Shown: positions 2,428 to 60,478 of the stretch, in pieces
Numbering within the stretch: position 1 is the stretch's first letter
Layout of the letters: each line of letters begins with the position of its first letter
Assembly (NCBI GenBank): GCA_032622095.1
Contig: CP136064.1
Coordinates: 125,537,605-125,601,604 of the forward strand
Length of the DNA stretch: 64,000 nt
Reading direction: 5' to 3'
Source of the DNA: Siphonodentalium dalli
Lineage: Eukaryota > Mollusca > Scaphopoda > Gadilida > Siphonodentaliidae
The notes under the pieces: generated by a model
Told to the model about the DNA's origin: nothing
The model's input: the letters and a program-made list of their open reading frames with translations, nothing else
Database searches by the model: none
Translations under genes and position numbers: made by a program

Positions 2428-3327
2428 TTGAAGGTTAATAGCACTAAAACTTGGACACATTTAAGAAAATGCTTCAGCAATTCAAAGAGAGCATATCTTT
2501 ATTCAACTAATTCAATATACACCCACATCCAGTTATCTTGGATCACCCTTGCAGACCTGAAAATGTCATATTTTATTCTTCAATGTGCTGATAAAGTCAT
2601 GCGCTTGATGCTCAGCTGATCAGATCTGGACTCAATGACCTCACATCACCAGAAGTTCTCTCATGGAAAGAATATTGTACAGTCTTCCATAGCTGATCCA
2701 AGTTTGCAACACCAGACCCCTAAAACTGAGTGAAAATGGGGCCTGAACATGACTGGTGGTGGAAAATTGTGCCTTTTTGATGAATAATTTGTTAAAGGGG
2801 GTGGGGTTAAATTGTGTGTGATAAATAAAGAACCATAGGGGTGATATTGTTTTTGAACACATTTTTTCCATTGATGGGCAATTCTGAAGAAATGTAGGGA
2901 GTTACAATTATTCCGCGAAAAAGCGGGCTATCGCTTTAAAGGGAAAAAATAGCTTTTTATCATTTTTGATTCCTGGGAGTCACTTTAAAGCTTTTTAATG
3001 CATTTTACAGAGCCTGGTCTTTCAGTCCAATGAATATCTCATGCTTAGTGTGGCTATTCTTGCTGCTGATGTCTTCTTTCACTTACATCAGCCAAAAAAA
3101 TAGTAAGATTTTTCATAAAAAATGCCAATTTTTCAAGGTATTTTCAAAAAAATTCAAGGTGGTAATAGTCACATGATAATGCAAATGACCCATAACATGA
3201 GCATGTCAACGACACATATATCAATTGTTATAAGAACCTAATCTAACAAGTATTTTGGATTTTATAGCCAGTGATATACAGATATATATCATAAAAGTGT
3301 GTCATTTCCACTGGTGGGTATGGTCAT
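2428..3327. repeat. Reference 900-bp monomer without MITE
   Basis: A representative short unit, given in the phase of the landmark. It is AT-rich with long A and T runs, contains a near-duplicate TTCAAGGT motif pair about 24 bases apart, and has a small hairpin (CCGC, loop GAAAAA, GCGG) about 10 bases before the MITE junction. It includes AATAAA motifs but no intron or coding signature. A 231-bp ATG frame on the minus strand and a 192-bp TTG-started frame on the plus strand are open in nearly every copy. Because copies are virtually identical, their persistence is not evidence for selection. I do not recognise the monomer as a known transposon. Confidence 0.9.
2933..2943. other. Empty MITE site, class GCTTTAAAGGG
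   Basis: Eleven-base junction equal to the filled site minus the element and one TA. It contains the 8-base palindrome CTTTAAAG centred on TA. This is the 900-bp, apparently precise, class. Confidence 0.85.
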
Positions 3328-3838
3328 TTGAAGGTTAATAGCACTAAAACTTGGACACATTTAAGAAAATGCTTCAGCAATTCAAAGAGAGCATATCTTT
3401 ATTCAACTAATTCAATATACACCCACATCCAGTTATCTTGGATCACCCTTGCAGACCTGAAAATGTCATATTTTATTCTTCAATGTGCTGATAAAGTCAT
3501 GCGCTTGATGCTCAGCTGATCAGATCTGGACTCAATGACCTCACATCACCAGAAGTTCTCTCATGGAAAGAATATTGTACAGTCTTCCATAGCTGATCCA
3601 AGTTTGCAACACCAGACCCCTAAAACTGAGTGAAAATGGGGCCTGAACATGACTGGTGGTGGAAAATTGTGCCTTTTTGATGAATAATTTGTTAAAGGGG
3701 GTGGGGTTAAATTGTGTGTGATAAATAAAGAACCATAGGGGTGATATTGTTTTTGAACACATTTTTTCCATTGATGGGCAATTCTGAAGAAATGTAGGGA
3801 GTTACAATTATTCCGCGAAAAAGCGGGCTATCGCTTTA

Positions 3839-4289
3839 GGTTACACTGGTGTAAATACTATAGGCAGCTCCCCCTGCGGTTGCGGGAGGAGTATAGAGTT
3901 TCACAGTTAAAACACTCTGGGCTGTGATTGGTTGCATGAATTAAATGTAAACTGTTGACAAAAATTCAAGGAATCATTCTCCCACAAACTTCATTTGCCA
4001 AGAGGCCCATTCATTAAAGGTGAAGTCTGTTGTGGCTGTTTAGAAATTTTAAGTGTGATTGAAAAAATGACAATATTTTTTTAGTGCGGAACTGACCCTA
4101 GTCATGAAAAAACGAAAATTTGAAGTGGATTCCCTGCTAGACGGTGTTGATTTTTTTATTGGGAAAGTTTCCACAGATGTCAAGCTCACATAATCCGAAG
4201 GCAGTTTGAACAGTTTCCATTTGACCTCTGATGCAGATCAACAAACGTTAACACTGAAGCCTATGGGAAATATTTACACCAGTGTAACC
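3839..4289. mobile_element. MITE copy 3
   Basis: Standard flanks; first of five consecutive filled units. Confidence 0.88.
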
Positions 4290-5191
4290 TAAAGGGAAAA
4301 AATAGCTTTTTATCATTTTTGATTCCTGGGAGTCACTTTAAAGCTTTTTAATGCATTTTACAGAGCCTGGTCTTTCAGTCCAATGAATATCTCATGCTTA
4401 GTGTGGCTATTCTTGCTGCTGATGTCTTCTTTCACTTACATCAGCCAAAAAAATAGTAAGATTTTTCATAAAAAATGCCAATTTTTCAAGGTATTTTCAA
4501 AAAAATTCAAGGTGGTAATAGTCACATGATAATGCAAATGACCCATAACATGAGCATGTCAACGACACATATATCAATTGTTATAAGAACCTAATCTAAC
4601 AAGTATTTTGGATTTTATAGCCAGTGATATACAGATATATATCATAAAAGTGTGTCATTTCCACTGGTGGGTATGGTCATTTGAAGGTTAATAGCACTAA
4701 AACTTGGACACATTTAAGAAAATGCTTCAGCAATTCAAAGAGAGCATATCTTTATTCAACTAATTCAATATACACCCACATCCAGTTATCTTGGATCACC
4801 CTTGCAGACCTGAAAATGTCATATTTTATTCTTCAATGTGCTGATAAAGTCATGCGCTTGATGCTCAGCTGATCAGATCTGGACTCAATGACCTCACATC
4901 ACCAGAAGTTCTCTCATGGAAAGAATATTGTACAGTCTTCCATAGCTGATCCAAGTTTGCAACACCAGACCCCTAAAACTGAGTGAAAATGGGGCCTGAA
5001 CATGACTGGTGGTGGAAAATTGTGCCTTTTTGATGAATAATTTGTTAAAGGGGGTGGGGTTAAATTGTGTGTGATAAATAAAGAACCATAGGGGTGATAT
5101 TGTTTTTGAACACATTTTTTCCATTGATGGGCAATTCTGAAGAAATGTAGGGAGTTACAATTATTCCGCGAAAAAGCGGGCTATCGCTTTA

Positions 5192-5642
5192 GGTTACACT
5201 GGTGTAAATACTATAGGCAGCTCCCCCTGCGGTTGCGGGAGGAGTATAGAGTTTCACAGTTAAAACACTCTGGGCTGTGATTGGTTGCATGAATTAAATG
5301 TAAACTGTTGACAAAAATTCAAGGAATCATTCTCCCACAAACTTCATTTGCCAAGAGGCCCATTCATTAAAGGTGAAGTCTGTTGTGGCTGTTTAGAAAT
5401 TTTAAGTGTGATTGAAAAAATGACAATATTTTTTTAGTGCGGAACTGACCCTAGTCATGAAAAAACGAAAATTTGAAGTGGATTCCCTGCTAGACGGTGT
5501 TGATTTTTTTATTGGGAAAGTTTCCACAGATGTCAAGCTCACATAATCCGAAGGCAGTTTGAACAGTTTCCATTTGACCTCTGATGCAGATCAACAAACG
5601 TTAACACTGAAGCCTATGGGAAATATTTACACCAGTGTAACC
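5192..5642. mobile_element. MITE copy 4
   Basis: Standard flanks on both sides. Confidence 0.88.
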
Positions 5643-6547
5643 TAAAGGGAAAAAATAGCTTTTTATCATTTTTGATTCCTGGGAGTCACTTTAAAGCTTT
5701 TTAATGCATTTTACAGAGCCTGGTCTTTCAGTCCAATGAATATCTCATGCTTAGTGTGGCTATTCTTGCTGCTGATGTCTTCTTTCACTTACATCAGCCA
5801 AAAAAATAGTAAGATTTTTCATAAAAAATGCCAATTTTTCAAGGTATTTTCAAAAAAATTCAAGGTGGTAATAGTCACATGATAATGCAAATGACCCATA
5901 ACATGAGCATGTCAACGACACATATATCAATTGTTATAAGAACCTAATCTAACAAGTATTTTGGATTTTATAGCCAGTGATATACAGATATATATCATAA
6001 AAGTGTGTCATTTCCACTGGTGGGTATGGTCATTTGAAGGTTAATAGCACTAAAACTTGGACACATTTAAGAAAATGCTTCAGCAATTCAAAGAGAGCAT
6101 ATCTTTATTCAACTAATTCAATATACACCCACATCCAGTTATCTTGGATCACCCTTGCAGACCTGAAAATGTCATATTTTATTCTTCAATGTGCTGATAA
6201 AGTCATGCGCTTGATGCTCAGCTGATCAGATCTGGACTCAATGACCTCACATCACCAGAAGTTCTCTCATGGAAAGAATATTGTACAGTCTTCCATAGCT
6301 GATCCAAGTTTGCAACACCAGACCCCTAAAACTGAGTGAAAATGGGGCCTGAACATGACTGGTGGTGGAAAATTGTGCCTTTTTGATGAATAATTTGTTA
6401 AAGGGGGTGGGGTTAAATTGTGTGTGATAAATAAAGAACCATAGGGGTGATATTGTTTTTGAACACATTTTTTCCATTGATGGGCAATTCTGAAGAAATG
6501 TAGGGAGTTACAATTATTCCGCGAAAAAGCGGGCTATCGCTTTAAAA

Positions 6548-6998
6548 GGTTACACTGGTGTAAATACTATAGGCAGCTCCCCCTGCGGTTGCGGGAGGAG
6601 TATAGAGTTTCACAGTTAAAACACTCTGGGCTGTGATTGGTTGCATGAATTAAATGTAAACTGTTGACAAAAATTCAAGGAATCATTCTCCCACAAACTT
6701 CATTTGCCAAGAGGCCCATTCATTAAAGGTGAAGTCTGTTGTGGCTGTTTAGAAATTTTAAGTGTGATTGAAAAAATGACAATATTTTTTTAGTGCGGAA
6801 CTGACCCTAGTCATGAAAAAACGAAAATTTGAAGTGGATTCCCTGCTAGACGGTGTTGATTTTTTTATTGGGAAAGTTTCCACAGATGTCAAGCTCACAT
6901 AATCCGAAGGCAGTTTGAACAGTTTCCATTTGACCTCTGATGCAGATCAACAAACGTTAACACTGAAGCCTATGGGAAATATTTACACCAGTGTAACC
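6548..6998. mobile_element. MITE copy 5, with 3 extra bases on the left flank
   Basis: The left flank reads GCTTTAAAA before GGTTACAC instead of GCTTTA; the right flank is standard. The unit is 1356 bp. The extra bases look like the TAAA of copies 17 and 19 minus one T. The element itself is intact. Confidence 0.88.
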
Positions 6999-7900
6999 TA
7001 AAGGGAAAAAATAGCTTTTTATCATTTTTGATTCCTGGGAGTCACTTTAAAGCTTTTTAATGCATTTTACAGAGCCTGGTCTTTCAGTCCAATGAATATC
7101 TCATGCTTAGTGTGGCTATTCTTGCTGCTGATGTCTTCTTTCACTTACATCAGCCAAAAAAATAGTAAGATTTTTCATAAAAAATGCCAATTTTTCAAGG
7201 TATTTTCAAAAAAATTCAAGGTGGTAATAGTCACATGATAATGCAAATGACCCATAACATGAGCATGTCAACGACACATATATCAATTGTTATAAGAACC
7301 TAATCTAACAAGTATTTTGGATTTTATAGCCAGTGATATACAGATATATATCATAAAAGTGTGTCATTTCCACTGGTGGGTATGGTCATTTGAAGGTTAA
7401 TAGCACTAAAACTTGGACACATTTAAGAAAATGCTTCAGCAATTCAAAGAGAGCATATCTTTATTCAACTAATTCAATATACACCCACATCCAGTTATCT
7501 TGGATCACCCTTGCAGACCTGAAAATGTCATATTTTATTCTTCAATGTGCTGATAAAGTCATGCGCTTGATGCTCAGCTGATCAGATCTGGACTCAATGA
7601 CCTCACATCACCAGAAGTTCTCTCATGGAAAGAATATTGTACAGTCTTCCATAGCTGATCCAAGTTTTCAACACCAGACCCCTAAAACTGAGTGAAAATG
7701 GGGCCTGAACATGACTGGTGGTGGAAAATTGTGCCTTTTTGATGAATAATTTGTTAAAGGGGGTGGGGTTAAATTGTGTGTGATAAATAAAGAACCATAG
7801 GGGTGATATTGTTTTTGAACACATTTTTTCCATTGATGGGCAATTCTGAAGAAATGTAGGGAGTTACAATTATTCCGCGAAAAAGCGGGCTATCGCTTTA

Positions 7901-8351
7901 GGTTACACTGGTGTAAATACTATAGGCAGCTCCCCCTGCGGTTGCGGGAGGAGTATAGAGTTTCACAGTTAAAACACTCTGGGCTGTGATTGGTTGCATG
8001 AATTAAATGTAAACTGTTGACAAAAATTCAAGGAATCATTCTCCCACAAACTTCATTTGCCAAGAGGCCCATTCATTAAAGGTGAAGTCTGTTGTGGCTG
8101 TTTAGAAATTTTAAGTGTGATTGAAAAAATGACAATATTTTTTTAGTGCGGAACTGACCCTAGTCATGAAAAAACGAAAATTTGAAGTGGATTCCCTGCT
8201 AGACGGTGTTGATTTTTTTATTGGGAAAGTTTCCACAGATGTCAAGCTCACATAATCCGAAGGCAGTTTGAACAGTTTCCATTTGACCTCTGATGCAGAT
8301 CAACAAACGTTAACACTGAAGCCTATGGGAAATATTTACACCAGTGTAACC
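7901..8351. mobile_element. MITE copy 6
   Basis: Standard flanks. The private G>T change at 7668 lies upstream in the same unit. Confidence 0.88.
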
Positions 8352-9253
8352 TAAAGGGAAAAAATAGCTTTTTATCATTTTTGATTCCTGGGAGTCACTT
8401 TAAAGCTTTTTAATGCATTTTACAGAGCCTGGTCTTTCAGTCCAATGAATATCTCATGCTTAGTGTGGCTATTCTTGCTGCTGATGTCTTCTTTCACTTA
8501 CATCAGCCAAAAAAATAGTAAGATTTTTCATAAAAAATGCCAATTTTTCAAGGTATTTTCAAAAAAATTCAAGGTGGTAATAGTCACATGATAATGCAAA
8601 TGACCCATAACATGAGCATGTCAACGACACATATATCAATTGTTATAAGAACCTAATCTAACAAGTATTTTGGATTTTATAGCCAGTGATATACAGATAT
8701 ATATCATAAAAGTGTGTCATTTCCACTGGTGGGTATGGTCATTTGAAGGTTAATAGCACTAAAACTTGGACACATTTAAGAAAATGCTTCAGCAATTCAA
8801 AGAGAGCATATCTTTATTCAACTAATTCAATATACACCCACATCCAGTTATCTTGGATCACCCTTGCAGACCTGAAAATGTCATATTTTATTCTTCAATG
8901 TGCTGATAAAGTCATGCGCTTGATGCTCAGCTGATCAGATCTGGACTCAATGACCTCACATCACCAGAAGTTCTCTCATGGAAAGAATATTGTACAGTCT
9001 TCCATAGCTGATCCAAGTTTGCAACACCAGACCCCTAAAACTGAGTGAAAATGGGGCCTGAACATGACTGGTGGTGGAAAATTGTGCCTTTTTGATGAAT
9101 AATTTGTTAAAGGGGGTGGGGTTAAATTGTGTGTGATAAATAAAGAACCATAGGGGTGATATTGTTTTTGAACACATTTTTTCCATTGATGGGCAATTCT
9201 GAAGAAATGTAGGGAGTTACAATTATTCCGCGAAAAAGCGGGCTATCGCTTTA

Positions 9254-9704
9254 GGTTACACTGGTGTAAATACTATAGGCAGCTCCCCCTGCGGTTGCGG
9301 GAGGAGTATAGAGTTTCACAGTTAAAACACTCTGGGCTGTGATTGGTTGCATGAATTAAATGTAAACTGTTGACAAAAATTCAAGGAATCATTCTCCCAC
9401 AAACTTCATTTGCCAAGAGGCCCATTCATTAAAGGTGAAGTCTGTTGTGGCTGTTTAGAAATTTTAAGTGTGATTGAAAAAATGACAATATTTTTTTAGT
9501 GCGGAACTGACCCTAGTCATGAAAAAACGAAAATTTGAAGTGGATTCCCTGCTAGACGGTGTTGATTTTTTTATTGGGAAAGTTTCCACAGATGTCAAGC
9601 TCACATAATCCGAAGGCAGTTTGAACAGTTTCCATTTGACCTCTGATGCAGATCAGCAAACGTTAACACTGAAGCCTATGGGAAATATTTACACCAGTGT
9701 AACC
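9254..9704. mobile_element. MITE copy 7, internal A>G
   Basis: Standard flanks. The only internal difference noticed is A>G at 9656 (GATCAGCAAA). The next two units are empty. Confidence 0.88.
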
Positions 9705-10600
9705 TAAAGGGAAAAAATAGCTTTTTATCATTTTTGATTCCTGGGAGTCACTTTAAAGCTTTTTAATGCATTTTACAGAGCCTGGTCTTTCAGTCCAATG
9801 AATATCTCATGCTTAGTGTGGCTATTCTTGCTGCTGATGTCTTCTTTCACTTACATCAGCCAAAAAAATAGTAAGATTTTTCATAAAAAATGCCAATTTT
9901 TCAAGGTATTTTCAAAAAAATTCAAGGTGGTAATAGTCACATGATAATGCAAATGACCCATAACATGAGCATGTCAACGACACATATATCAATTGTTATA
10001 AGAACCTAATCTAACAAGTATTTTGGATTTTATAGCCAGTGATATACAGATATATATCATAAAAGTGTGTCATTTCCACTGGTGGGTATGGTCATTTGAA
10101 GGTTAATAGCACTAAAACTTGGACACATTTAAGAAAATGCTTCAGCAATTCAAAGAGAGCATATCTTTATTCAACTAATTCAATATACACCCACATCCAG
10201 TTATCTTGGATCACCCTTGCAGACCTGAAAATGTCATATTTTATTCTTCAATGTGCTGATAAAGTCATGCGCTTGATGCTCAGCTGATCAGATCTGGACT
10301 CAATGACCTCACATCACCAGAAGTTCTCTCATGGAAAGAATATTGTACAGTCTTCCATAGCTGATCCAAGTTTGCAACACCAGACCCCTAAAACTGAGTG
10401 AAAATGGGGCCTGAACATGACTGGTGGTGGAAAATTGTGCCTTTTTGATGAATAATTTGTTAAAGGGGGTGGGGTTAAATTGTGTGTGATAAATAAAGAA
10501 CCATAGGGGTGATATTGTTTTTGAACACATTTTTTCCATTGATGGGCAATTCTGAAGAAATGTAGGGAGTTACAATTATTCCGCGAAAAAGCGGGCTATC

Positions 10601-10611
10601 GCTTTAAAGGG
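10601..10611. other. Empty MITE site, class GCTTTAAAGGG
   Basis: Precise-class junction; immediately followed by a unit with a different empty junction at 11501. Confidence 0.85.
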
Positions 10612-11500
10612 AAAAAATAGCTTTTTATCATTTTTGATTCCTGGGAGTCACTTTAAAGCTTTTTAATGCATTTTACAGAGCCTGGTCTTTCAGTCCAATG
10701 AATATCTCATGCTTAGTGTGGCTATTCTTGCTGCTGATGTCTTCTTTCACTTACATCAGCCAAAAAAATAGTAAGATTTTTCATAAAAAATGCCAATTTT
10801 TCAAGGTATTTTCAAAAAAATTCAAGGTGGTAATAGTCACATGATAATGCAAATGACCCATAACATGAGCATGTCAACGACACATATATCAATTGTTATA
10901 AGAACCTAATCTAACAAGTATTTTGGATTTTATAGCCAGTGATATACAGATATATATCATAAAAGTGTGTCATTTCCACTGGTGGGTATGGTCATTTGAA
11001 GGTTAATAGCACTAAAACTTGGACACATTTAAGAAAATGCTTCAGCAATTCAAAGAGAGCATATCTTTATTCAACTAATTCAATATACACCCACATCCAG
11101 TTATCTTGGATCACCCTTGCAGACCTGAAAATGTCATATTTTATTCTTCAATGTGCTGATAAAGTCATGCGCTTGATGCTCAGCTGATCAGATCTGGACT
11201 CAATGACCTCACATCACCAGAAGTTCTCTCATGGAAAGAATATTGTACAGTCTTCCATAGCTGATCCAAGTTTGCAACACCAGACCCCTAAAACTGAGTG
11301 AAAATGGGGCCTGAACATGACTGGTGGTGGAAAATTGTGCCTTTTTGATGAATAATTTGTTAAAGGGGGTGGGGTTAAATTGTGTGTGATAAATAAAGAA
11401 CCATAGGGGTGATATTGTTTTTGAACACATTTTTTCCATTGATGGGCAATTCTGAAGAAATGTAGGGAGTTACAATTATTCCGCGAAAAAGCGGGCTATC

Positions 11501-11510
11501 GCTTAAAGGG
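11501..11510. other. Empty MITE site, class GCTTAAAGGG
   Basis: One T fewer than the precise class, giving an 899-bp unit. The same class reappears only at 56419, in the other marker domain. Confidence 0.85.
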
Positions 11511-12405
11511 AAAAAATAGCTTTTTATCATTTTTGATTCCTGGGAGTCACTTTAAAGCTTTTTAATGCATTTTACAGAGCCTGGTCTTTCAGTCCAATGA
11601 ATATCTCATGCTTAGTGTGGCTATTCTTGCTGCTGATGTCTTCTTTCACTTACATCAGCCAAAAAAATAGTAAGATTTTTCATAAAAAATGCCAATTTTT
11701 CAAGGTATTTTCAAAAAAATTCAAGGTGGTAATAGTCACATGATAATGCAAATGACCCATAACATGAGCATGTCAACGACACATATATCAATTGTTATAA
11801 GAACCTAATCTAACAAGTATTTTGGATTTTATAGCCAGTGATATACAGATATATATCATAAAAGTGTGTCATTTCCACTGGTGGGTATGGTCATTTGAAG
11901 GTTAATAGCACTAAAACTTGGACACATTTAAGAAAATGCTTCAGCAATTCAAAGAGAGCATATCTTTATTCAACTAATTCAATATACACCCACATCCAGT
12001 TATCTTGGATCACCCTTGCAGACCTGAAAATGTCATATTTTATTCTTCAATGTGCTGATAAAGTCATGCGCTTGATGCTCAGCTGATCAGATCTGGACTC
12101 AATGACCTCACATCACCAGAAGTTCTCTCATGGAAAGAATATTGTACAGTCTTCCATAGCTGATCCAAGTTTGCAACACCAGACCCCTAAAACTGAGTGA
12201 AAATGGGGCCTGAACATGACTGGTGGTGGAAAATTGTGCCTTTTTGATGAATAATTTGTTAAAGGGGGTGGGGTTAAATTGTGTGTGATAAATAAAGAAC
12301 CATAGGGGTGATATTGTTTTTGAACACATTTTTTCCATTGATGGGCAATTCTGAAGAAATGTAGGGAGTTACAATTATTCCGCGAAAAAGCGGGCTATCG
12401 CTTTA

Positions 12406-12856
12406 GGTTACACTGGTGTAAATACTATAGGCAGCTCCCCCTGCGGTTGCGGGAGGAGTATAGAGTTTCACAGTTAAAACACTCTGGGCTGTGATTGGTT
12501 GCATGAATTAAATGTAAACTGTTGACAAAAATTCAAGGAATCATTCTCCCACAAACTTCATTTGCCAAGAGGCCCATTCATTAAAGGTGAAGTCTGTTGT
12601 GGCTGTTTAGAAATTTTAAGTGTGATTGAAAAAATGACAATATTTTTTTAGTGCGGAACTGACCCTAGTCATGAAAAAACGAAAATTTGAAGTGGATTCC
12701 CTGCTAGACGGTGTTGATTTTTTTATTGGGAAAGTTTCCACAGATGTCAAGCTCACATAATCCGAAGGCAGTTTGAACAGTTTCCATTTGACCTCTGATG
12801 CAGATCAACAAACGTTAACACTGAAGCCTATGGGAAATATTTACACCAGTGTAACC
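12406..12856. mobile_element. MITE copy 8
   Basis: Standard flanks; follows two adjacent empty units. Confidence 0.88.
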
Positions 12857-13758
12857 TAAAGGGAAAAAATAGCTTTTTATCATTTTTGATTCCTGGGAGT
12901 CACTTTAAAGCTTTTTAATGCATTTTACAGAGCCTGGTCTTTCAGTCCAATGAATATCTCATGCTTAGTGTGGCTATTCTTGCTGCTGATGTCTTCTTTC
13001 ACTTACATCAGCCAAAAAAATAGTAAGATTTTTCATAAAAAATGCCAATTTTTCAAGGTATTTTCAAAAAAATTCAAGGTGGTAATAGTCACATGATAAT
13101 GCAAATGACCCATAACATGAGCATGTCAACGACACATATATCAATTGTTATAAGAACCTAATCTAACAAGTATTTTGGATTTTATAGCCAGTGATATACA
13201 GATATATATCATAAAAGTGTGTCATTTCCACTGGTGGGTATGGTCATTTGAAGGTTAATAGCACTAAAACTTGGACACATTTAAGAAAATGCTTCAGCAA
13301 TTCAAAGAGAGCATATCTTTATTCAACTAATTCAATATACACCCACATCCAGTTATCTTGGATCACCCTTGCAGACCTGAAAATGTCATATTTTATTCTT
13401 CAATGTGCTGATAAAGTCATGCGCTTGATGCTCAGCTGATCAGATCTGGACTCAATGACCTCACATCACCAGAAGTTCTCTCATGGAAAGAATATTGTAC
13501 AGTCTTCCATAGCTGATCCAAGTTTGCAACACCAGACCCCTAAAACTGAGTGAAAATGGGGCCTGAACATGACTGGTGGTGGAAAATTGTGCCTTTTTGA
13601 TGAATAATTTGTTAAAGGGGGTGGGGTTAAATTGTGTGTGATAAATAAAGAACCATAGGGGTGATATTGTTTTTGAACACATTTTTTCCATTGATGGGCA
13701 ATTCTGAAGAAATGTAGGGAGTTACAATTATTCCGCGAAAAAGCGGGCTATCGCTTTA

Positions 13759-17432: not shown

Positions 17433-17575
17433 CTAGCTGTGCGGTCATAAACTTGGCATTAATATATACTTACACAATGTACCAAACAATGTTGCACATT
17501 CTTATGATGCATGAAAAGGTATGATATCATACATGCTGGACAGTATGACATCCATATGAGACAAGAATAACTTAC

Positions 17576-20617: not shown

Positions 20618-20644
20618 GTTTTGATAAATTTTTCCATAAAATTT

Positions 20645-44250: not shown

Positions 44251-44260
44251 GCTTTAAGGG
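44251..44260. other. Empty MITE site, class GCTTTAAGGG
   Basis: Third in-order repeat of the filled, filled, empty pattern. Confidence 0.85.
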
Positions 44261-48312: not shown

Positions 48313-49214
48313 TAAAGGGAAAAAATAGCTTTTTATCATTTTTGATTCCTGGGAGTCACTTTAAAGCTTTTTAATGCATTTTACAGAGCCTGGTCTTTCA
48401 GTCCAATGAATATCTCATGCTTGGTGTGGCTATTCTTGCTGCTGATGTCTTCTTTCACTTACATCAGCCAAAAAAATAGTAAGATTTTTCATAAAAAATG
48501 CCAATTTTTCAAGGTATTTTCAAAAAAATTCAAGGTGGTAATAGTCACATGATAATGCAAATGACCCATAACATGAGCATGTCAACGACACATATATCAA
48601 TTGTTATAAGAACCTAATCTAACAAGTATTTTGGATTTTATAGCCAGTGATATACAGATATATATCATAAAAGTGTGTCATTTCCACTGGTGGGTATGGT
48701 CATTTGAAGGTTAATAGCACTAAAACTTGGACACATTTAAGAAAATGCTTCAGCAATTCAAAGAGAGCATATCTTTATTCAACTAATTCAATACACACCC
48801 ACATCCAGTTATCTTGGATCACCCTTGCAGACCTGAAAATGTCATATTTTATTCTTCAATGTGCTGATAAAGTCATGCGCTTGATGCTCAGCTGATCAGA
48901 TCTGGACTCAATGACCTCACATCACCAGAAGTTCTCTCATGGAAAGAATATTGTACAGTCTTCCATAGCTGATCCAAGTTTGCAACACCAGACCCCTAAA
49001 ACTGAGTGAAAATGGGGCCTGAACATGACTGGTGGTGGAAAATTGTGCCTTTTTGATGAATAATTTGTTAAAGGGGGTGGGGTTAAATTGTGTGTGATAA
49101 ATAAAGAACCATAGGGGTGATATTGTTTTTGAACACATTTTTTCCATTGATGGGCAATTCTGAAGAAATGTAGGGAGTTACAATTATTCTGCGAAAAAGC
49201 GGGCTATCGCTTTA

Positions 49215-49665
49215 GGTTACACTGGTGTAAATACTATAGGCAGCTCCCCCTGCGGTTGCGGGAGGAGTATAGAGTTTCACAGTTAAAACACTCTGGGCTG
49301 TGATTGGTTGCATGAATTAAATGTAAACTGTTGACAAAAATTCAAGGAATCATTCTCCCACAAACTTCATTTGCCAAGAGGCCCATTCATTAAAGGTGAA
49401 GTCTGTTGTGGCTGTTTAGAAATTTTAAGTGTGATTGAAAAAATGACAATATTTTTTTAGTGCGGAACTGACCCTAGTCATGAAAAAACGAAAATTTGAA
49501 GTGGATTCCCTGCTAGACGGTGTTGATTTTTTTATTGGGAAAGTTTCCACAGATGTCAAGCTCACATAATCCGAAGGCAGTTTGAACAGTTTCCATTTGA
49601 CCTCTGATGCAGATCAACAAACGTTAACACTGAAGCCTATGGGAAATATTTACACCAGTGTAACC
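49215..49665. mobile_element. MITE copy 25
   Basis: Standard flanks. C>T at 49190 breaks one pair of the small CCGC/GCGG hairpin just upstream. Confidence 0.88.
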
Positions 49666-50561
49666 TAAAGGGAAAAAATAGCTTTTTATCATTTTTGATT
49701 CCTGGGAGTCACTTTAAAGCTTTTTAATGCATTTTACAGAGCCTGGTCTTTCAGTCCAATGAATATCTCATGCTTGGTGTGGCTATTCTTGCTGCTGATG
49801 TCTTCTTTCACTTACATCAGCCAAAAAAATAGTAAGATTTTTCATAAAAAATGCCAATTTTTCAAGGTATTTTCAAAAAAATTCAAGGTGGTAATAGTCA
49901 CATGATAATGCAAATGACCCATAACATGAGCATGTCAACGACACATATATCAATTGTTATAAGAACCTAATCTAACAAGTATTTTGGATTTTATAGCCAG
50001 TGATATACAGATATATATCATAAAAGTGTGTCATTTCCACTGGTGGGTATGGTCATTTGAAGGTTAATAGCACTAAAACTTGGACACATTTAAGAAAATG
50101 CTTCAGCAATTCAAAGAGAGCATATCTTTATTCAACTAATTCAATATACACCCACATCCAGTTATCTTGGATCACCCTTGCAGACCTGAAAATGTCATAT
50201 TTTATTCTTCAATGTGCTGATAAAGTCATGCGCTTGATGCTCAGCTGATCAGATCTGGACTCAATGACCTCACATCACCAGAAGTTCTCTCATGGAAAGA
50301 ATATTGTACAGTCTTCCATAGCTGATCCAAGTTTGCAACACCAGACCCCTAAAACTGAGTGAAAATGGGGCCTGAACATGACTGGTGGTGGAAAATTGTG
50401 CCTTTTTGATGAATAATTTGTTAAAGGGGGTGGGGTTAAATTGTGTGTGATAAATAAAGAACCATAGGGGTGATATTGTTTTTGAACACATTTTTTCCAT
50501 TGATGGGCAATTCTGAAGAAATGTAGGGAGTTACAATTATTCCGCGAAAAAGCGGGCTATC

Positions 50562-50571
50562 GCTTTAAGGG
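50562..50571. other. Empty MITE site, class GCTTTAAGGG
   Basis: Single empty unit between filled ones. Confidence 0.85.
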
Positions 50572-51466
50572 AAAAAATAGCTTTTTATCATTTTTGATTC
50601 CTGGGAGTCACTTTAAAGCTTTTTAATGCATTTTACAGAGCCTGGTCTTTCAGTCCAATGAATATCTCATGCTTGGTGTGGCTATTCTTGCTGCTGATGT
50701 CTTCTTTCACTTACATCAGCCAAAAAAATAGTAAGATTTTTCATAAAAAATGCCAATTTTTCAAGGTATTTTCAAAAAAATTCAAGGTGGTAATAGTCAC
50801 ATGATAATGCAAATGACCCATAACATGAGCATGTCAACGACACATATATCAATTGTTATAAGAACCTAATCTAACAAGTATTTTGGATTTTATAGCCAGT
50901 GATATACAGATATATATCATAAAAGTGTGTCATTTCCACTGGTGGGTATGGTCATTTGAAGGTTAATAGCACTAAAACTTGGACACATTTAAGAAAATGC
51001 TTCAGCAATTCAAAGAGAGCATATCTTTATTCAACTAATTCAATATACACCCACATCCAGTTATCTTGGATCACCCTTGCAGACCTGAAAATGTCATATT
51101 TTATTCTTCAATGTGCTGATAAAGTCATGCGCTTGATGCTCAGCTGATCAGATCTGGACTCAATGACCTCACATCACCAGAAGTTCTCTCATGGAAAGAA
51201 TATTGTACAGTCTTCCATAGCTGATCCAAGTTTGCAACACCAGACCCCTAAAACTGAGTGAAAATGGGGCCTGAACATGACTGGTGGTGGAAAATTGTGC
51301 CTTTTTGATGAATAATTTGTTAAAGGGGGTGGGGTTAAATTGTGTGTGATAAATAAAGAACCATAGGGGTGATATTGTTTTTGAACACATTTTTTCCATT
51401 GATGGGCAATTCTGAAGAAATGTAGGGAGTTACAATTATTCCGCGAAAAAGCGGGCTATCGCTTTA

Positions 51467-51917
51467 GGTTACACTGGTGTAAATACTATAGGCAGCTCCC
51501 CCTGCGGTTGCGGGAGGAGTATAGAGTTTCACAGTTAAAACACTCTGGGCTGTGATTGGTTGCATGAATTAAATGTAAACTGTTGACAAAAATTCAAGGA
51601 ATCATTCTCCCACAAACTTCATTTGCCAAGAGGCCCATTCATTAAAGGTGAAGTCTGTTGTGGCTGTTTAGAAATTTTAAGTGTGATTGAAAAAATGACA
51701 ATATTTTTTTAGTGCGGAACTGACCCTAGTCATGAAAAAACGAAAATTTGAAGTGGATTCCCTGCTAGACGGTGTTGATTTTTTTATTGGGAAAGTTTCC
51801 ACAGATGTCAAGCTCACATAATCCGAAGGCAGTTTGAACAGTTTCCATTTGACCTCTGATGCAGATCAACAAACGTTAACACTGAAGCCTATGGGAAATA
51901 TTTACACCAGTGTAACC
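51467..51917. mobile_element. MITE copy 26
   Basis: Standard flanks. Confidence 0.88.
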
Positions 51918-52819
51918 TAAAGGGAAAAAATAGCTTTTTATCATTTTTGATTCCTGGGAGTCACTTTAAAGCTTTTTAATGCATTTTACAGAGCCTGGTC
52001 TTTCAGTCCAATGAATATCTCATGCTTGGTGTGGCTATTCTTGCTGCTGATGTCTTCTTTCACTTACATCAGCCAAAAAAATAGTAAGATTTTTCATAAA
52101 AAATGCCAATTTTTCAAGGTATTTTCAAAAAAATTCAAGGTGGTAATAGTCACATGATAATGCAAATGACCCATAACATGAGCATGTCAACGACACATAT
52201 ATCAATTGTTATAAGAACCTAATCTAACAAGTATTTTGGATTTTATAGCCAGTGATATACAGATATATATCATAAAAGTGTGTCATTTCCACTGGTGGGT
52301 ATGGTCATTTGAAGGTTAATAGCACTAAAACTTGGACACATTTAAGAAAATGCTTCAGCAATTCAAAGAGAGCATATCTTTATTCAACTAATTCAATATA
52401 CACCCACATCCAGTTATCTTGGATCACCCTTGCAGACCTGAAAATGTCATATTTTATTCTTCAATGTGCTGATAAAGTCATGCGCTTGATGCTCAGCTGA
52501 TCAGATCTGGACTCAATGACCTCACATCACCAGAAGTTCTCTCATGGAAAGAATATTGTACAGTCTTCCATAGCTGATCCAAGTTTGCAACACCAGACCC
52601 CTAAAACTGAGTGAAAATGGGGCCTGAACATGACTGGTGGTGGAAAATTGTGCCTTTTTGATGAATAATTTGTTAAAGGGGGTGGGGTTAAATTGTGTGT
52701 GATAAATAAAGAACCATAGGGGTGATATTGTTTTTGAACACATTTTTTCCATTGATGGGCAATTCTGAAGAAATGTAGGGAGTTACAATTATTCCGCGAA
52801 AAAGCGGGCTATCGCTTTA

Positions 52820-53270
52820 GGTTACACTGGTGTAAATACTATAGGCAGCTCCCCCTGCGGTTGCGGGAGGAGTATAGAGTTTCACAGTTAAAACACTCTG
52901 GGCTGTGATTGGTTGCATGAATTAAATGTAAACTGTTGACAAAAATTCAAGGAATCATTCTCCCACAAACTTCATTTGCCAAGAGGCCCATTCATTAAAG
53001 GTGAAGTCTGTTGTGGCTGTTTAGAAATTTTAAGTGTGATTGAAAAAATGACAATATTTTTTTAGTGCGGAACTGACCCTAGTCATGAAAAAACGAAAAT
53101 TTGAAGTGGATTCCCTGCTAGACGGTGTTGATTTTTTTATTGGGAAAGTTTCCACAGATGTCAAGCTCACATAATCCGAAGGCAGTTTGAACAGTTTCCA
53201 TTTGACCTCTGATGCAGATCAACAAACGTTAACACTGAAGCCTATGGGAAATATTTACACCAGTGTAACC
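52820..53270. mobile_element. MITE copy 27
   Basis: Standard flanks; followed by an empty unit. Confidence 0.88.
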
Positions 53271-54166
53271 TAAAGGGAAAAAATAGCTTTTTATCATTTT
53301 TGATTCCTGGGAGTCACTTTAAAGCTTTTTAATGCATTTTACAGAGCCTGGTCTTTCAGTCCAATGAATATCTCATGCTTGGTGTGGCTATTCTTGCTGC
53401 TGATGTCTTCTTTCACTTACATCAGCCAAAAAAATAGTAAGATTTTTCATAAAAAATGCCAATTTTTCAAGGTATTTTCAAAAAAATTCAAGGTGGTAAT
53501 AGTCACATGATAATGCAAATGACCCATAACATGAGCATGTCAACGACACATATATCAATTGTTATAAGAACCTAATCTAACAAGTATTTTGGATTTTATA
53601 GCCAGTGATATACAGATATATATCATAAAAGTGTGTCATTTCCACTGGTGGGTATGGTCATTTGAAGGTTAATAGCACTAAAACTTGGACACATTTAAGA
53701 AAATGCTTCAGCAATTCAAAGAGAGCATATCTTTATTCAACTAATTCAATATACACCCACATCCAGTTATCTTGGATCACCCTTGCAGACCTGAAAATGT
53801 CATATTTTATTCTTCAATGTGCTGATAAAGTCATGCGCTTGATGCTCAGCTGATCAGATCTGGACTCAATGACCTCACATCACCAGAAGTTCTCTCATGG
53901 AAAGAATATTGTACAGTCTTCCATAGCTGATCCAAGTTTGCAACACCAGACCCCTAAAACTGAGTGAAAATGGGGCCTGAACATGACTGGTGGTGGAAAA
54001 TTGTGCCTTTTTGATGAATAATTTGTTAAAGGGGGTGGGGTTAAATTGTGTGTGATAAATAAAGAACCATAGGGGTGATATTGTTTTTGAACACATTTTT
54101 TCCATTGATGGGCAATTCTGAAGAAATGTAGGGAGTTACAATTATTCCGCGAAAAAGCGGGCTATC

Positions 54167-54177
54167 GCTTTAAAGGG
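54167..54177. other. Empty MITE site, class GCTTTAAAGGG
   Basis: Precise class. Confidence 0.85.
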
Positions 54178-55072
54178 AAAAAATAGCTTTTTATCATTTT
54201 TGATTCCTGGGAGTCACTTTAAAGCTTTTTAATGCATTTTACAGAGCCTGGTCTTTCAGTCCAATGAATATCTCATGCTTGGTGTGGCTATTCTTGCTGC
54301 TGATGTCTTCTTTCACTTACATCAGCCAAAAAAATAGTAAGATTTTTCATAAAAAATGCCAATTTTTCAAGGTATTTTCAAAAAAATTCAAGGTGGTAAT
54401 AGTCACATGATAATGCAAATGACCCATAACATGAGCATGTCAACGACACATATATCAATTGTTATAAGAACCTAATCTAACAAGTATTTTGGATTTTATA
54501 GCCAGTGATATACAGATATATATCATAAAAGTGTGTCATTTCCACTGGTGGGTATGGTCATTTGAAGGTTAATAGCACTAAAACTTGGACACATTTAAGA
54601 AAATGCTTCAGCAATTCAAAGAGAGCATATCTTTATTCAACTAATTCAATATACACCCACATCCAGTTATCTTGGATCACCCTTGCAGACCTGAAAATGT
54701 CATATTTTATTCTTCAATGTGCTGATAAAGTCATGCGCTTGATGCTCAGCTGATCAGATCTGGACTCAATGACCTCACATCACCAGAAGTTCTCTCATGG
54801 AAAGAATATTGTACAGTCTTCCATAGCTGATCCAAGTTTGCAACACCAGACCCCTAAAACTGAGTGAAAATGGGGCCTGAACATGACTGGTGGTGGAAAA
54901 TTGTGCCTTTTTGATGAATAATTTGTTAAAGGGGGTGGGGTTAAATTGTGTGTGATAAATAAAGAACCATAGGGGTGATATTGTTTTTGAACACATTTTT
55001 TCCATTGATGGGCAATTCTGAAGAAATGTAGGGAGTTACAATTATTCCGCGAAAAAGCGGGCTATCGCTTTA

Positions 55073-55523
55073 GGTTACACTGGTGTAAATACTATAGGCA
55101 GCTCCCCCTGCGGTTGCGGGAGGAGTATAGAGTTTCACAGTTAAAACACTCTGGGCTGTGATTGGTTGCATGAATTAAATGTAAACTGTTGACAAAAATT
55201 CAAGGAATCATTCTCCCACAAACTTCATTTGCCAAGAGGCCCATTCATTAAAGGTGAAGTCTGTTGTGGCTGTTTAGAAATTTTAAGTGTGATTGAAAAA
55301 ATGACAATATTTTTTTAGTGCGGAACTGACCCTAGTCATGAAAAAACGAAAATTTGAAGTGGATTCCCTGCTAGACGGTGTTGATTTTTTTATTGGGAAA
55401 GTTTCCACAGATGTCAAGCTCACATAATCCGAAGGCAGTTTGAACAGTTTCCATTTGACCTCTGATGCAGATCAACAAACGTTAACACTGAAGCCTATGG
55501 GAAATATTTACACCAGTGTAACC
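55073..55523. mobile_element. MITE copy 28
   Basis: Standard flanks. The monomer downstream has the one-base deletion near 55912. Confidence 0.88.
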
Positions 55524-56418
55524 TAAAGGGAAAAAATAGCTTTTTATCATTTTTGATTCCTGGGAGTCACTTTAAAGCTTTTTAATGCATTTTACAGAGC
55601 CTGGTCTTTCAGTCCAATGAATATCTCATGCTTGGTGTGGCTATTCTTGCTGCTGATGTCTTCTTTCACTTACATCAGCCAAAAAAATAGTAAGATTTTT
55701 CATAAAAAATGCCAATTTTTCAAGGTATTTTCAAAAAAATTCAAGGTGGTAATAGTCACATGATAATGCAAATGACCCATAACATGAGCATGTCAACGAC
55801 ACATATATCAATTGTTATAAGAACCTAATCTAACAAGTATTTTGGATTTTATAGCCAGTGATATACAGATATATATCATAAAAGTGTGTCATTTCCACTG
55901 GTGGGTATGGTCTTTGAAGGTTAATAGCACTAAAACTTGGACACATTTAAGAAAATGCTTCAGCAATTCAAAGAGAGCATATCTTTATTCAACTAATTCA
56001 ATATACACCCACATCCAGTTATCTTGGATCACCCTTGCAGACCTGAAAATGTCATATTTTATTCTTCAATGTGCTGATAAAGTCATGCGCTTGATGCTCA
56101 GCTGATCAGATCTGGACTCAATGACCTCACATCACCAGAAGTTCTCTCATGGAAAGAATATTGTACAGTCTTCCATAGCTGATCCAAGTTTGCAACACCA
56201 GACCCCTAAAACTGAGTGAAAATGGGGCCTGAACATGACTGGTGGTGGAAAATTGTGCCTTTTTGATGAATAATTTGTTAAAGGGGGTGGGGTTAAATTG
56301 TGTGTGATAAATAAAGAACCATAGGGGTGATATTGTTTTTGAACACATTTTTTCCATTGATGGGCAATTCTGAAGAAATGTAGGGAGTTACAATTATTCC
56401 GCGAAAAAGCGGGCTATC

Positions 56419-56428
56419 GCTTAAAGGG
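56419..56428. other. Empty MITE site, class GCTTAAAGGG
   Basis: Second occurrence of the class first seen at 11501, about 45 kb away and in the other marker domain. Confidence 0.85.
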
Positions 56429-57323
56429 AAAAAATAGCTTTTTATCATTTTTGATTCCTGGGAGTCACTTTAAAGCTTTTTAATGCATTTTACAGAGCCT
56501 GGTCTTTCAGTCCAATGAATATCTCATGCTTGGTGTGGCTATTCTTGCTGCTGATGTCTTCTTTCACTTACATCAGCCAAAAAAATAGTAAGATTTTTCA
56601 TAAAAAATGCCAATTTTTCAAGGTATTTTCAAAAAAATTCAAGGTGGTAATAGTCACATGATAATGCAAATGACCCATAACATGAGCATGTCAACGACAC
56701 ATATATCAATTGTTATAAGAACCTAATCTAACAAGTATTTTGGATTTTATAGCCAGTGATATACAGATATATATCATAAAAGTGTGTCATTTCCACTGGT
56801 GGGTATGGTCATTTGAAGGTTAATAGCACTAAAACTTGGACACATTTAAGAAAATGCTTCAGCAATTCAAAGAGAGCATATCTTTATTCAACTAATTCAA
56901 TATACACCCACATCCAGTTATCTTGGATCACCCTTGCAGACCTGAAAATGTCATATTTTATTCTTCAATGTGCTGATAAAGTCATGCGCTTGATGCTCAG
57001 CTGATCAGATCTGGACTCAATGACCTCACATCACCAGAAGTTCTCTCATGGAAAGAATATTGTACAGTCTTCCATAGCTGATCCAAGTTTGCAACACCAG
57101 ACCCCTAAAACTGAGTGAAAATGGGGCCTGAACATGACTGGTGGTGGAAAATTGTGCCTTTTTGATGAATAATTTGTTAAAGGGGGTGGGGTTAAATTGT
57201 GTGTGATAAATAAAGAACCATAGGGGTGATATTGTTTTTGAACACATTTTTTCCATTGATGGGCAATTCTGAAGAAATGTAGGGAGTTACAATTATTCCG
57301 CGAAAAAGCGGGCTATCGCTTTA

Positions 57324-57774
57324 GGTTACACTGGTGTAAATACTATAGGCAGCTCCCCCTGCGGTTGCGGGAGGAGTATAGAGTTTCACAGTTAAAACAC
57401 TCTGGGCTGTGATTGGTTGCATGAATTAAATGTAAACTGTTGACAAAAATTCAAGGAATCATTCTCCCACAAACTTCATTTGCCAAGAGGCCCATTCATT
57501 AAAGGTGAAGTCTGTTGTGGCTGTTTAGAAATTTTAAGTGTGATTGAAAAAATGACAATATTTTTTTAGTGCGGAACTGACCCTAGTCATGAAAAAACGA
57601 AAATTTGAAGTGGATTCCCTGCTAGACGGTGTTGATTTTTTTATTGGGAAAGTTTCCACAGATGTCAAGCTCACATAATCCGAAGGCAGTTTGAACAGTT
57701 TCCATTTGACCTCTGATGCAGATCAACAAACGTTAACACTGAAGCCTATGGGAAATATTTACACCAGTGTAACC
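57324..57774. mobile_element. MITE copy 29
   Basis: Standard flanks; followed by three empty units. Confidence 0.88.
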
Positions 57775-58670
57775 TAAAGGGAAAAAATAGCTTTTTATCA
57801 TTTTTGATTCCTGGGAGTCACTTTAAAGCTTTTTAATGCATTTTACAGAGCCTGGTCTTTCAGTCCAATGAATATCTCATGCTTGGTGTGGCTATTCTTG
57901 CTGCTGATGTCTTCTTTCACTTACATCAGCCAAAAAAATAGTAAGATTTTTCATAAAAAATGCCAATTTTTCAAGGTATTTTCAAAAAAATTCAAGGTGG
58001 TAATAGTCACATGATAATGCAAATGACCCATAACATGAGCATGTCAACGACACATATATCAATTGTTATAAGAACCTAATCTAACAAGTATTTTGGATTT
58101 TATAGCCAGTGATATACAGATATATATCATAAAAGTGTGTCATTTCCACTGGTGGGTATGGTCATTTGAAGGTTAATAGCACTAAAACTTGGACACATTT
58201 AAGAAAATGCTTCAGCAATTCAAAGAGAGCATATCTTTATTCAACTAATTCAATATACACCCACATCCAGTTATCTTGGATCACCCTTGCAGACCTGAAA
58301 ATGTCATATTTTATTCTTCAATGTGCTGATAAAGTCATGCGCTTGATGCTCAGCTGATCAGATCTGGACTCAATGACCTCACATCACCAGAAGTTCTCTC
58401 ATGGAAAGAATATTGTACAGTCTTCCATAGCTGATCCAAGTTTGCAACACCAGACCCCTAAAACTGAGTGAAAATGGGGCCTGAACATGACTGGTGGTGG
58501 AAAATTGTGCCTTTTTGATGAATAATTTGTTAAAGGGGGTGGGGTTAAATTGTGTGTGATAAATAAAGAACCATAGGGGTGATATTGTTTTTGAACACAT
58601 TTTTTCCATTGATGGGCAATTCTGAAGAAATGTAGGGAGTTACAATTATTCCGCGAAAAAGCGGGCTATC

Positions 58671-58679
58671 GCTTTAGGG
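58671..58679. other. Empty MITE site, class GCTTTAGGG
   Basis: First of three adjacent empty units that each have a different junction. Confidence 0.85.
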
Positions 58680-59568
58680 AAAAAATAGCTTTTTATCATT
58701 TTTGATTCCTGGGAGTCACTTTAAAGCTTTTTAATGCATTTTACAGAGCCTGGTCTTTCAGTCCAATGAATATCTCATGCTTGGTGTGGCTATTCTTGCT
58801 GCTGATGTCTTCTTTCACTTACATCAGCCAAAAAAATAGTAAGATTTTTCATAAAAAATGCCAATTTTTCAAGGTATTTTCAAAAAAATTCAAGGTGGTA
58901 ATAGTCACATGATAATGCAAATGACCCATAACATGAGCATGTCAACGACACATATATCAATTGTTATAAGAACCTAATCTAACAAGTATTTTGGATTTTA
59001 TAGCCAGTGATATACAGATATATATCATAAAAGTGTGTCATTTCCACTGGTGGGTATGGTCATTTGAAGGTTAATAGCACTAAAACTTGGACACATTTAA
59101 GAAAATGCTTCAGCAATTCAAAGAGAGCATATCTTTATTCAACTAATTCAATATACACCCACATCCAGTTATCTTGGATCACCCTTGCAGACCTGAAAAT
59201 GTCATATTTTATTCTTCAATGTGCTGATAAAGTCATGCGCTTGATGCTCAGCTGATCAGATCTGGACTCAATGACCTCACATCACCAGAAGTTCTCTCAT
59301 GGAAAGAATATTGTACAGTCTTCCATAGCTGATCCAAGTTTGCAACACCAGACCCCTAAAACTGAGTGAAAATGGGGCCTGAACATGACTGGTGGTGGAA
59401 AATTGTGCCTTTTTGATGAATAATTTGTTAAAGGGGGTGGGGTTAAATTGTGTGTGATAAATAAAGAACCATAGGGGTGATATTGTTTTTGAACACATTT
59501 TTTCCATTGATGGGCAATTCTGAAGAAATGTAGGGAGTTACAATTATTCCGCGAAAAAGCGGGCTATC

Positions 59569-59578
59569 GCTTTAAGGG
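59569..59578. other. Empty MITE site, class GCTTTAAGGG
   Basis: Second of the three adjacent different junctions. Confidence 0.85.
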
Positions 59579-60467
59579 AAAAAATAGCTTTTTATCATTT
59601 TTGATTCCTGGGAGTCACTTTAAAGCTTTTTAATGCATTTTACAGAGCCTGGTCTTTCAGTCCAATGAATATCTCATGCTTGGTGTGGCTATTCTTGCTG
59701 CTGATGTCTTCTTTCACTTACATCAGCCAAAAAAATAGTAAGATTTTTCATAAAAAATGCCAATTTTTCAAGGTATTTTCAAAAAAATTCAAGGTGGTAA
59801 TAGTCACATGATAATGCAAATGACCCATAACATGAGCATGTCAACGACACATATATCAATTGTTATAAGAACCTAATCTAACAAGTATTTTGGATTTTAT
59901 AGCCAGTGATATACAGATATATATCATAAAAGTGTGTCATTTCCACTGGTGGGTATGGTCATTTGAAGGTTAATAGCACTAAAACTTGGACACATTTAAG
60001 AAAATGCTTCAGCAATTCAAAGAGAGCATATCTTTATTCAACTAATTCAATATACACCCACATCCAGTTATCTTGGATCACCCTTGCAGACCTGAAAATG
60101 TCATATTTTATTCTTCAATGTGCTGATAAAGTCATGCGCTTGATGCTCAGCTGATCAGATCTGGACTCAATGACCTCACATCACCAGAAGTTCTCTCATG
60201 GAAAGAATATTGTACAGTCTTCCATAGCTGATCCAAGTTTGCAACACCAGACCCCTAAAACTGAGTGAAAATGGGGCCTGAACATGACTGGTGGTGGAAA
60301 ATTGTGCCTTTTTGATGAATAATTTGTTAAAGGGGGTGGGGTTAAATTGTGTGTGATAAATAAAGAACCATAGGGGTGATATTGTTTTTGAACACATTTT
60401 TTCCATTGATGGGCAATTCTGAAGAAATGTAGGGAGTTACAATTATTCCGCGAAAAAGCGGGCTATC

Positions 60468-60478
60468 GCTTTAAAGGG
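60468..60478. other. Empty MITE site, class GCTTTAAAGGG
   Basis: Third of the three adjacent different junctions; precise class. Confidence 0.85.

Follow-up and report, generated by a model that had tools for sequence, protein, structure and literature searches.

How can a satellite array carry the same short element at one base of its monomer in some units, and a set of different joins at that base in others? This question is raised by a 64,000-bp stretch of the genome of the scaphopod Siphonodentalium dalli (hereafter the window; C4:125537605-125601604, where C4 is contig CP136064.1; the assembly comprises 2.23 Gb in 9 contigs). The initial annotation proposed that a miniature inverted-repeat transposable element (MITE) had landed in an existing satellite and is now excised from it. 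We come to a different view. The whole array is very probably a single nonautonomous composite transposon of the KolobokP type. The supposed MITE is its long terminal direct repeat (LTDR), which is cut out separately, and the supposed monomer is its internal part (INT), the ends of which are then rejoined. The locus bears on the origin of satellites and on the growth of transposon multimers, since the termini and target duplication of this 229-kb satellite are those of a single transposon insertion.

The satellite array is bounded like one transposon insertion

KolobokP elements are composite-like animal transposons, presented as follows in the available part of their founding description (Kojima and Bao 2022, PMC9587614). 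LTDRs of about 450 bp, with their own terminal inverted repeats (TIRs) of up to 18 bp and RR..YY ends, are associated with an INT. Multimers of the form (LTDR-INT)n-LTDR occur, with target site duplications (TSDs) of 3-5 bp on the outside (PMC9587614).

The first complete LTDR of the window (positions 233..683, + strand) is 451 bp long, runs from GGTTACAC to GTGTAACC and is found in 31 copies. Its length, like the 453 bp of the copy at locus L032 described below, agrees with that of KolobokP LTDRs (~450 or 660 bp). Its TIRs are perfect over 19 bp, with GG..CC ends, and exceed the published range (11-18 bp) by one base. The first complete INT (684..1585, + strand) is 902 bp long, starts with TAAAGGG and ends with GCTTTA. 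A 19-base pattern, consisting of an 18-bp LTDR end after a non-A base, occurs 576 + 602 times in the genome, a count that takes in related LTDR families such as those of L029-L031; the reversed pattern, used as a control, occurs 0 and 0 times. The TIR had no match among viral contigs, a collection from which records of the S. dalli genome may be excluded.

For a reading of the whole array, C4:125400001-125540000 and C4:125600001-125660000 were joined to the window. The array is an (LTDR-INT)n-LTDR multimer of 229,162 bp (C4:125400924-125630085), of which the window (1..64000, + strand) is a part. It has an LTDR at both termini. The sequence ..GTGTCAT precedes the first unit and TCATGGAAG.. follows the last, such that an exact 4-bp duplication, TCAT, brackets the whole. 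An ordinary satellite would not be bounded by transposon ends and a target duplication. TCAT on both sides identifies the array as the product of a single transposon insertion and not as a satellite entered by a MITE. A second array (C2:93127506-93133813) also starts and ends with an LTDR, between TACC and TACC. Thus, two of the three arrays seen at both ends have an exact duplication within the 3-5 bp of KolobokP. Outside these two insertions the duplications are of 4 bp, and no TA duplication is found.

Close relatives of the LTDR adjoin a nuclease and a transposase

The initial annotation suggested a search for a Tc1/mariner relative sharing the element's ends. No sign of Tc1/mariner emerged: LTDRs of the same family adjoin other enzymes. 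At L032 and L033, which are neighbouring units of one array, the LTDR is 98.5% identical to that of the window, and at L034 98.9%. At all three loci it lies next to open reading frames (ORFs) of a His-Me finger nuclease; the INT of the window has no match at any of them. The LTDR of L032 is bordered as CCCTTTA|GG..CC|TAAAGG, with inner edges identical to those seen in the window. The nuclease ORF of this locus (L032:1411-1815, + strand) matches PF05551 (E=1.8e-14), and its best solved relative is I-PpoI (E=0.003). On the opposite strand, L032:1839-3293 encodes a Mutator-like transposase (PF20700, E=1.8e-33), and a further piece of a PF20700 transposase is found in L035 (E=2.3e-6).

The published motifs of KolobokP transposases are D, a CCHC finger, D, DxxH and E (PMC9587614, in its available part). 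By eye, the L032 translation appears to contain ADG.., a CCHC-like stretch, TDPDA, DSAH and KAEAF. KolobokP transposases are DDE enzymes with a C/DxxH motif and two zinc fingers; one CCHC-like stretch was read here.

At least 149 PF05551 matches are present in the S. dalli genome, a lower bound from 150 scored candidates out of 390, and many are in tandem at 4.0-4.5 kb spacing. None of 14 control genomes has a match. Two arrays of nuclease-bearing units (C2:178174277-178206035, 8 at 4,495 bp; C8:164865782-164898396, 9 at ~4,041 bp) are apparently autonomous. The C8 unit is 454 bp shorter than that of C2, and we considered whether the C8 array (164.87-164.90 Mb) lacks the LTDR; an LTDR end is present at all nine junctions read. 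We also compared the LTDR edge with the I-PpoI target site. The 10 matches over 15 bases are no evidence of a relation: among 200 shuffles, 126 reach 10 and 33 reach 11 or more.

Scars left at LTDR-free junctions

Junctions were read from GCTATC to GGGAAAAAATAGC, so that a junction with altered anchor letters would escape detection. The window contains 50 of them, 31 filled by an LTDR and 19 empty, in six classes, exactly as first counted. With the leading GC dropped, and measured against full INT abutment (TTTA+TAAA), the classes are as follows, all on the + strand. TTTAAA, with 2 bp lost, occurs five times (2935..2940, 10603-10608, 31177-31182, 54169-54174 and 60470-60475). TTTAA (3 bp lost) is the most frequent, with seven cases at 21275..21279, 33430-33434, 37039-37043, 40648-40652, 44253-44257, 50564-50568 and 59571-59575. 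Three scars are TTTA (4 bp lost; 26675..26678, 27573-27576 and 58673-58676). Losses from the other side give TTAAA (3 bp; 11503..11507 and 56421-56425) and TAAA (4 bp; 24424..24427). TTT, at 23527..23529, has lost 5 bp and is the only scar that needs a loss on both sides.

Over the whole C4 array, 127 of the 171 junctions are filled and 44 empty, and no further class appears (TTTAAA 16, TTTAA 12, TTTA 8, TAAA 4, TTAAA 3, TTT 1). The losses amount to 2 bp in 16 cases, 3 bp in 15, 4 bp in 12 and 5 bp in one. LTDR excision in KolobokP removes 1-5 bp from one side and leaves INT-INT joins 3 or 4 bp short (PMC9587614, in the part available). Here, a one-sided loss of 2-4 bp from the INT ends TTTA and TAAA accounts for 43 of the 44 scars. 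Except for TTT, none of the 44 is a join requiring loss from both sides (TTAA, TTA, TAA, TA). A one-sided model has a log-likelihood of -67.2 (5 free parameters, 2% reserved for TTT), as compared to -72.0 for independent two-sided trimming (8 parameters), with scar counts that are not fully independent. None of the 44 scars needs bases of the element, as had been noted for the window; a GG derived from the LTDR could hide in the GGG of the flank.

Genome-wide, 417 empty junctions with intact anchors were found, a count that covers scars of TTT or longer. Among the matches listed (100 of the 417, all on C1) TAAA occurs 63 times, TTTAA 21, TTTA 9, TTAAA 4 and TTTAAA 3, such that all 100 belong to the five main classes. 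Only two scars longer than TTTAAA exist with intact anchors, both TTTAAAA. Smaller stretches have their own sets: TTAAA twice on C2, TTTA with two TTTAAA at C9:211.98, five TTTAA at C1:187.7, three TTTAAA with TTAAA at C6:146.38, and TTTAAA with TTAAA at C9:142.96. The near-identity of the units makes these joins a natural assay of KolobokP excision, with 44 scars in one array and 417 empty junctions in the genome, versus the six footprints of Fig. 2B in the founding paper, as far as its available part goes (PMC9587614).

Two ways of accounting for the classes were dropped. Nearly every join with a 2-4 bp loss is compatible with microhomology, and the class list is therefore uninformative on this point. 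Hairpin-end joining, as in hAT/RAG-like systems, would give TTTATAAA scars, i.e. full abutment, and none of the 417 junctions has one.

Outside the junctions, the window has 7 private changes (6 substitutions and one 1-bp deletion) and one site that varies block-wise, body 107, with A in the first 12 units and G in the remaining compared bodies; two of the 50 bodies were left out of the comparison because of their length. The "eight private differences" noted before were thus about right. In the whole array 50 of 171 junctions are noncanonical, whereas the 203,467 bp compared elsewhere show 31 variant types, including 3 indels. The excess per base ranges from ~77-fold, counting an estimated 16 junction events, to 240-fold for all 50. 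Variation is concentrated at the junctions as first claimed, and this is not due to chance.

Recurrent excision and copying of scars

Do the scars record many excisions, or are they few and old, recent excision being absent and unequal exchange or gene conversion having merely mixed them? According to the base at body site 107, the C4 array falls into two blocks, A and G; a single unit, at the edge of an inversion, breaks this pattern. Both blocks hold five scar classes, and TTT is confined to the G block. Provided that each block descends from a single founder and that scars were not moved by gene conversion, five classes in each block plus TTT imply at least 11 losses. Merging adjacent identical scars leaves 41 of 44. 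Successive empty junctions agree in class in 11 of 43 cases versus 10.1 in shuffles (p 0.43), such that neighbouring scars are no more similar than expected. The small arrays on C1:187.7, C2, C6 and C9 have differing scar sets. For these reasons, we regard the mixing of a few old scars as unlikely to be the whole explanation, and recurrent LTDR excision on C4 as well supported. The earlier rejection of a single empty ancestor is borne out by the five classes in two separate backgrounds; its further suggestion of "ongoing" excision goes beyond what is shown.

Copying has nevertheless left clear traces, and these are what speaks for old scars. A 3.6-kb pattern occurs repeatedly in the window, and a 12.9-kb block is duplicated within the array at C4:125.49-125.51 Mb. 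At C1:275.645-275.735 Mb the TAAA class occurs in long runs (63 among the 100 matches listed); there copying dominates, one scar class having mostly been amplified. Scar counts therefore do not all represent separate events, as the 3.6-kb repeat and the C1 runs illustrate. Excision and copying both operate, in proportions that vary among arrays.

The C1 runs belong to a second large tract of window-type INT (C1:275547930-275735484), which is mostly LTDR-free and has the TAAA scar in ~898-bp runs. It is an INT-only satellite in the making. An inverted block with 17 junctions lies inside the C4 array (C4:125464053-125485252), and the single unit of G type found in the A block adjoins its edge. 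In C4:125402265-125456369 the base at INT body site 445 switches between A and C unit by unit, and C occurs in 28 of 165 bodies, all within this part. It is as if exchange were frequent in this part only.

Weighing the remaining explanations

LTDRs might also be lost without an enzyme, by replication slippage or by structure-driven deletion through a hairpin that the 19-bp inverted ends could form. Slippage often retains part of the inverted ends. In all 44 C4 deletions the breakpoints lie no more than 4 bp from either LTDR edge, though the edges share only a 2-bp direct repeat. Scars with retained LTDR bases or wider breakpoints would favour slippage; among those with intact anchors, none longer than TTTAAAA was found genome-wide. 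Enzyme-free loss is therefore improbable.

The MITE proposal itself holds that a satellite was entered once by a TA-targeting element (Tc1/mariner, or a TA-duplicating group near Harbinger/ISL2EU), was homogenised and is now losing it. The inner edges TTTA|..|TAAA are indeed compatible with insertion into TTTAAA and duplication of its TA, and no scar requires element bases. Excision of the Tc1/mariner type leaves a footprint of 2-3 terminal element bases, which 0 of the 44 C4 scars need. TA-duplicating Harbinger-related transposons do exist (PMC12730594, in its available part). However, the array ends in LTDRs and a 4-bp TCAT duplication, not in satellite sequence, and LTDRs 98-99% identical to those of the window adjoin genes for a His-Me nuclease and a PF20700 transposase; their inner edges are likewise TTTA/TAAA, around an INT that the window's does not match. 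The edges are INT ends. Given the array termini and the autonomous relatives, this explanation is difficult to sustain and we consider it highly improbable. Assembly or polishing errors are just as improbable a source of the classes: these are read from assembly letters alone, at short T and A runs, but only 3 indel types occur in 203,467 bp outside the junctions despite longer A/T runs there, and arrays on C1, C2, C6 and C9 show these classes again.

Several points weigh against a KolobokP-type array with recurrent excision. A third complete array (C9, ~211.98 Mb) has flanks TATG and TATA, which agree at 3 of 4 bases only. The three copies L029-L031, whose related LTDRs have ~70-76% identity along the longest alignment, lack an exact duplication of 4 bp. 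The L032 transposase is a putative KolobokP transposase, placed by a Pfam match and motifs read by eye. TTT (1 of 44) and TTTAAAA (2 of 417) lie outside the one-sided 2-4 bp set, and the limit of the genome-wide count to scars of TTT or longer also counts here. Losses that can be assigned to a side are 20 on the right and 7 on the left (p 0.019, uncorrected for copying), an asymmetry that simple pairing of overhangs, considered below, does not predict. Empty C4 units are mildly clustered (16 adjacent pairs versus 11.1 expected, p 0.037), which hints at some local copying. G-type unit 125486801 lies within the A block, showing that the blocks have not been wholly free of exchange, and scars could be transferred by short gene conversion.

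Altered edges of retained LTDRs

Four of the 31 filled junctions of the window vary at the LTDR edge, with the LTDR kept, all on the + strand. The left edge reads TTTAAAA for TTTA at 6541..6547 (junction 6533). It reads TTTATAAA at 35682..35689 (junction 35674) and at 39291-39298 (junction 39283), probably through a single event, as both lie within the repeated 3.6-kb pattern. The right edge reads TTTATAAA for TAAA at 63178..63185 (junction 62715).

Genome-wide, 124 left edges beside a retained LTDR are longer than TTTA. Among the 100 matches listed, TTTATAAA left edges occur at C3:113.34, C3:113.48, C4:103.38, in the C4 array, at C5:87.5 and many times at C6:128.37-128.55 Mb; other forms are TTTAAAA, TTTAAA, TTTAA, TTAAA and a few more. 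Longer right edges number 16. Twelve differ in the length of a G run (one with an extra substitution). The other 4 have added bases: TTTA in the case from the window, TTTAA in two cases from a single array at C4:198.96, and TAAGGC by a different LTDR at C1:238.45. The latter locus (L055, C1:238451560-238452090) joins a window-type INT start, via TAAGGC, to a 451-bp LTDR of a different family, ~71% identical. At C6:128373215-128548251 a large array has TTTATAAA as left edge in many units, often at 1,357-bp spacing; an altered-edge unit seems to have been the amplified founder.

Judged from their letters, most altered left forms look like INT-INT joins placed against an LTDR. The TTTATAAA edges fit both re-insertion with a 4-bp duplication (TTTA[TAAA]LTDR[TAAA]) and repair after a cut at one end. 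The C4 array has six units with altered edges, which represent about five events, and in all of them the LTDR has the standard orientation, expected about once in 32 under random orientation; the C4 LTDRs comprise five variant types in all, hence none is reversed. This tilts the balance towards repair, and we lean to in-place repair rather than re-insertion as the source of altered edges on C4.

A possible route to the scars

A KolobokP-type element would have entered C4 at one site, duplicating TCAT, and grown to (LTDR-INT)n-LTDR, presumably via unequal exchange. The 451-bp LTDR, with its own inverted ends, would then be excised separately; the enzymes are presumably supplied in trans by autonomous relatives elsewhere in the genome. 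The leftover INT ends (..TTTA and TAAA..) would be rejoined minus 2-4 bp, mostly attributable to one side, each class of join being a scar.

The class set itself may be explained by a 4-nt staggered cut, about 4 nt into the flank, such that each INT end keeps a 3' overhang TTTA. Pairing of the terminal A of one overhang with the first, second or third T of its partner would give exactly TTTAAA, TTTAA, TTTA, TTAAA and TAAA. The proposed stagger equals the 4 bp of the target duplication. I-PpoI cleavage leaves four-base 3' overhangs, and in KolobokP-1_MeMe, whose INT ends are TATA and TATA, one TATA is found at INT-INT joins (both from the available part of PMC9587614); self-pairing overhangs would be expected to give this single TATA. 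Alternatively, an LTDR circle taking along 2-4 bp of one flank would predict the same class set. Circle formation has been raised for KolobokP by analogy with IS3 and IS256 (PMC9587614, in its available part). We propose overhang pairing, with either the transposase or the nuclease as the cutting enzyme, only tentatively, at somewhat less than even chances.

A more speculative extension, which we think rather doubtful, is that the satellite is self-made. Staggered 4-nt cuts at LTDR edges, made by the transposon's nuclease or transposase, would lead either to LTDR loss with one of five scars, to repair with an altered edge (TTTATAAA, TTTAAAA), or to unequal exchange up to hundreds of kb. A single enzyme activity would thereby underlie the variation in scars, in altered edges and in copy number alike.

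Other insertions in the array

One INT of the window contains a 4,812-bp insert (16282-21093) with ends CCCTTACC..GGTAAAGGG, a 2-bp duplication TG and subterminal TTAGCGTTT repeats. A 97%-identical relative of 4,780 bp occupies another INT position in both halves of the duplicated block (C4:125493556 and 125506456). None of five pieces of the insert tested had a Pfam match, and Rfam gave no score up to the gathering threshold on window positions 14000-23600.

Comparison with known systems

A literature search requiring all terms together gave no match for composite transposons in satellites. Mboumar, a mariner element in ant satellite DNA (PMC2581405), is likewise a transposon within tandem repeats, but there the transposon is a guest of the satellite whereas here the satellite itself is the transposon. 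Tetris and the Helentron-derived satellites (PMC4079207, PMC7492417) also tie transposon parts to satellite repeats; they involve other kinds of transposons. These statements reflect the parts of the three papers available to us. As in bacterial composite transposons and the circles of IS3 and IS256, end elements are mobile alone, and such circles carry a few bp of flank (PMC9587614, in its available part). Unlike in IS3 and IS256, the host is eukaryotic and an LTDR circle is purely hypothetical.

The closest likeness is with KolobokP, especially nonautonomous families such as KolobokP-4N1_CorFlu and the INT-INT multimers of KolobokP-1_MeMe. Shared features are the ~450-bp LTDR with its own GG..CC inverted ends and an INT between, the (LTDR-INT)n-LTDR multimers with outer TSDs, LTDR loss that takes a few bp of one flank, and autonomous relatives with a His-Me nuclease and a transposase on opposite strands. 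The differences are of scale and detail. One insertion here has 171 junctions over 229 kb, whereas the available part of PMC9587614 mentions four INTs in abutment and multimers from trimers upwards. Scar losses are 2-5 bp, as compared to 3 or 4 bp at published INT-INT joins and 1-5 bp overall. We saw no description of altered edges on retained LTDRs in that part of the paper. Thus, multimers, LTDR excision and one-sided losses of 1-5 bp are already published for KolobokP, and the satellite scale, the larger scar spectrum and the altered edges of retained LTDRs are what this locus adds. The question raised in the founding paper, whether a circle forms and what role the nuclease plays, becomes testable in vitro with short DNA.

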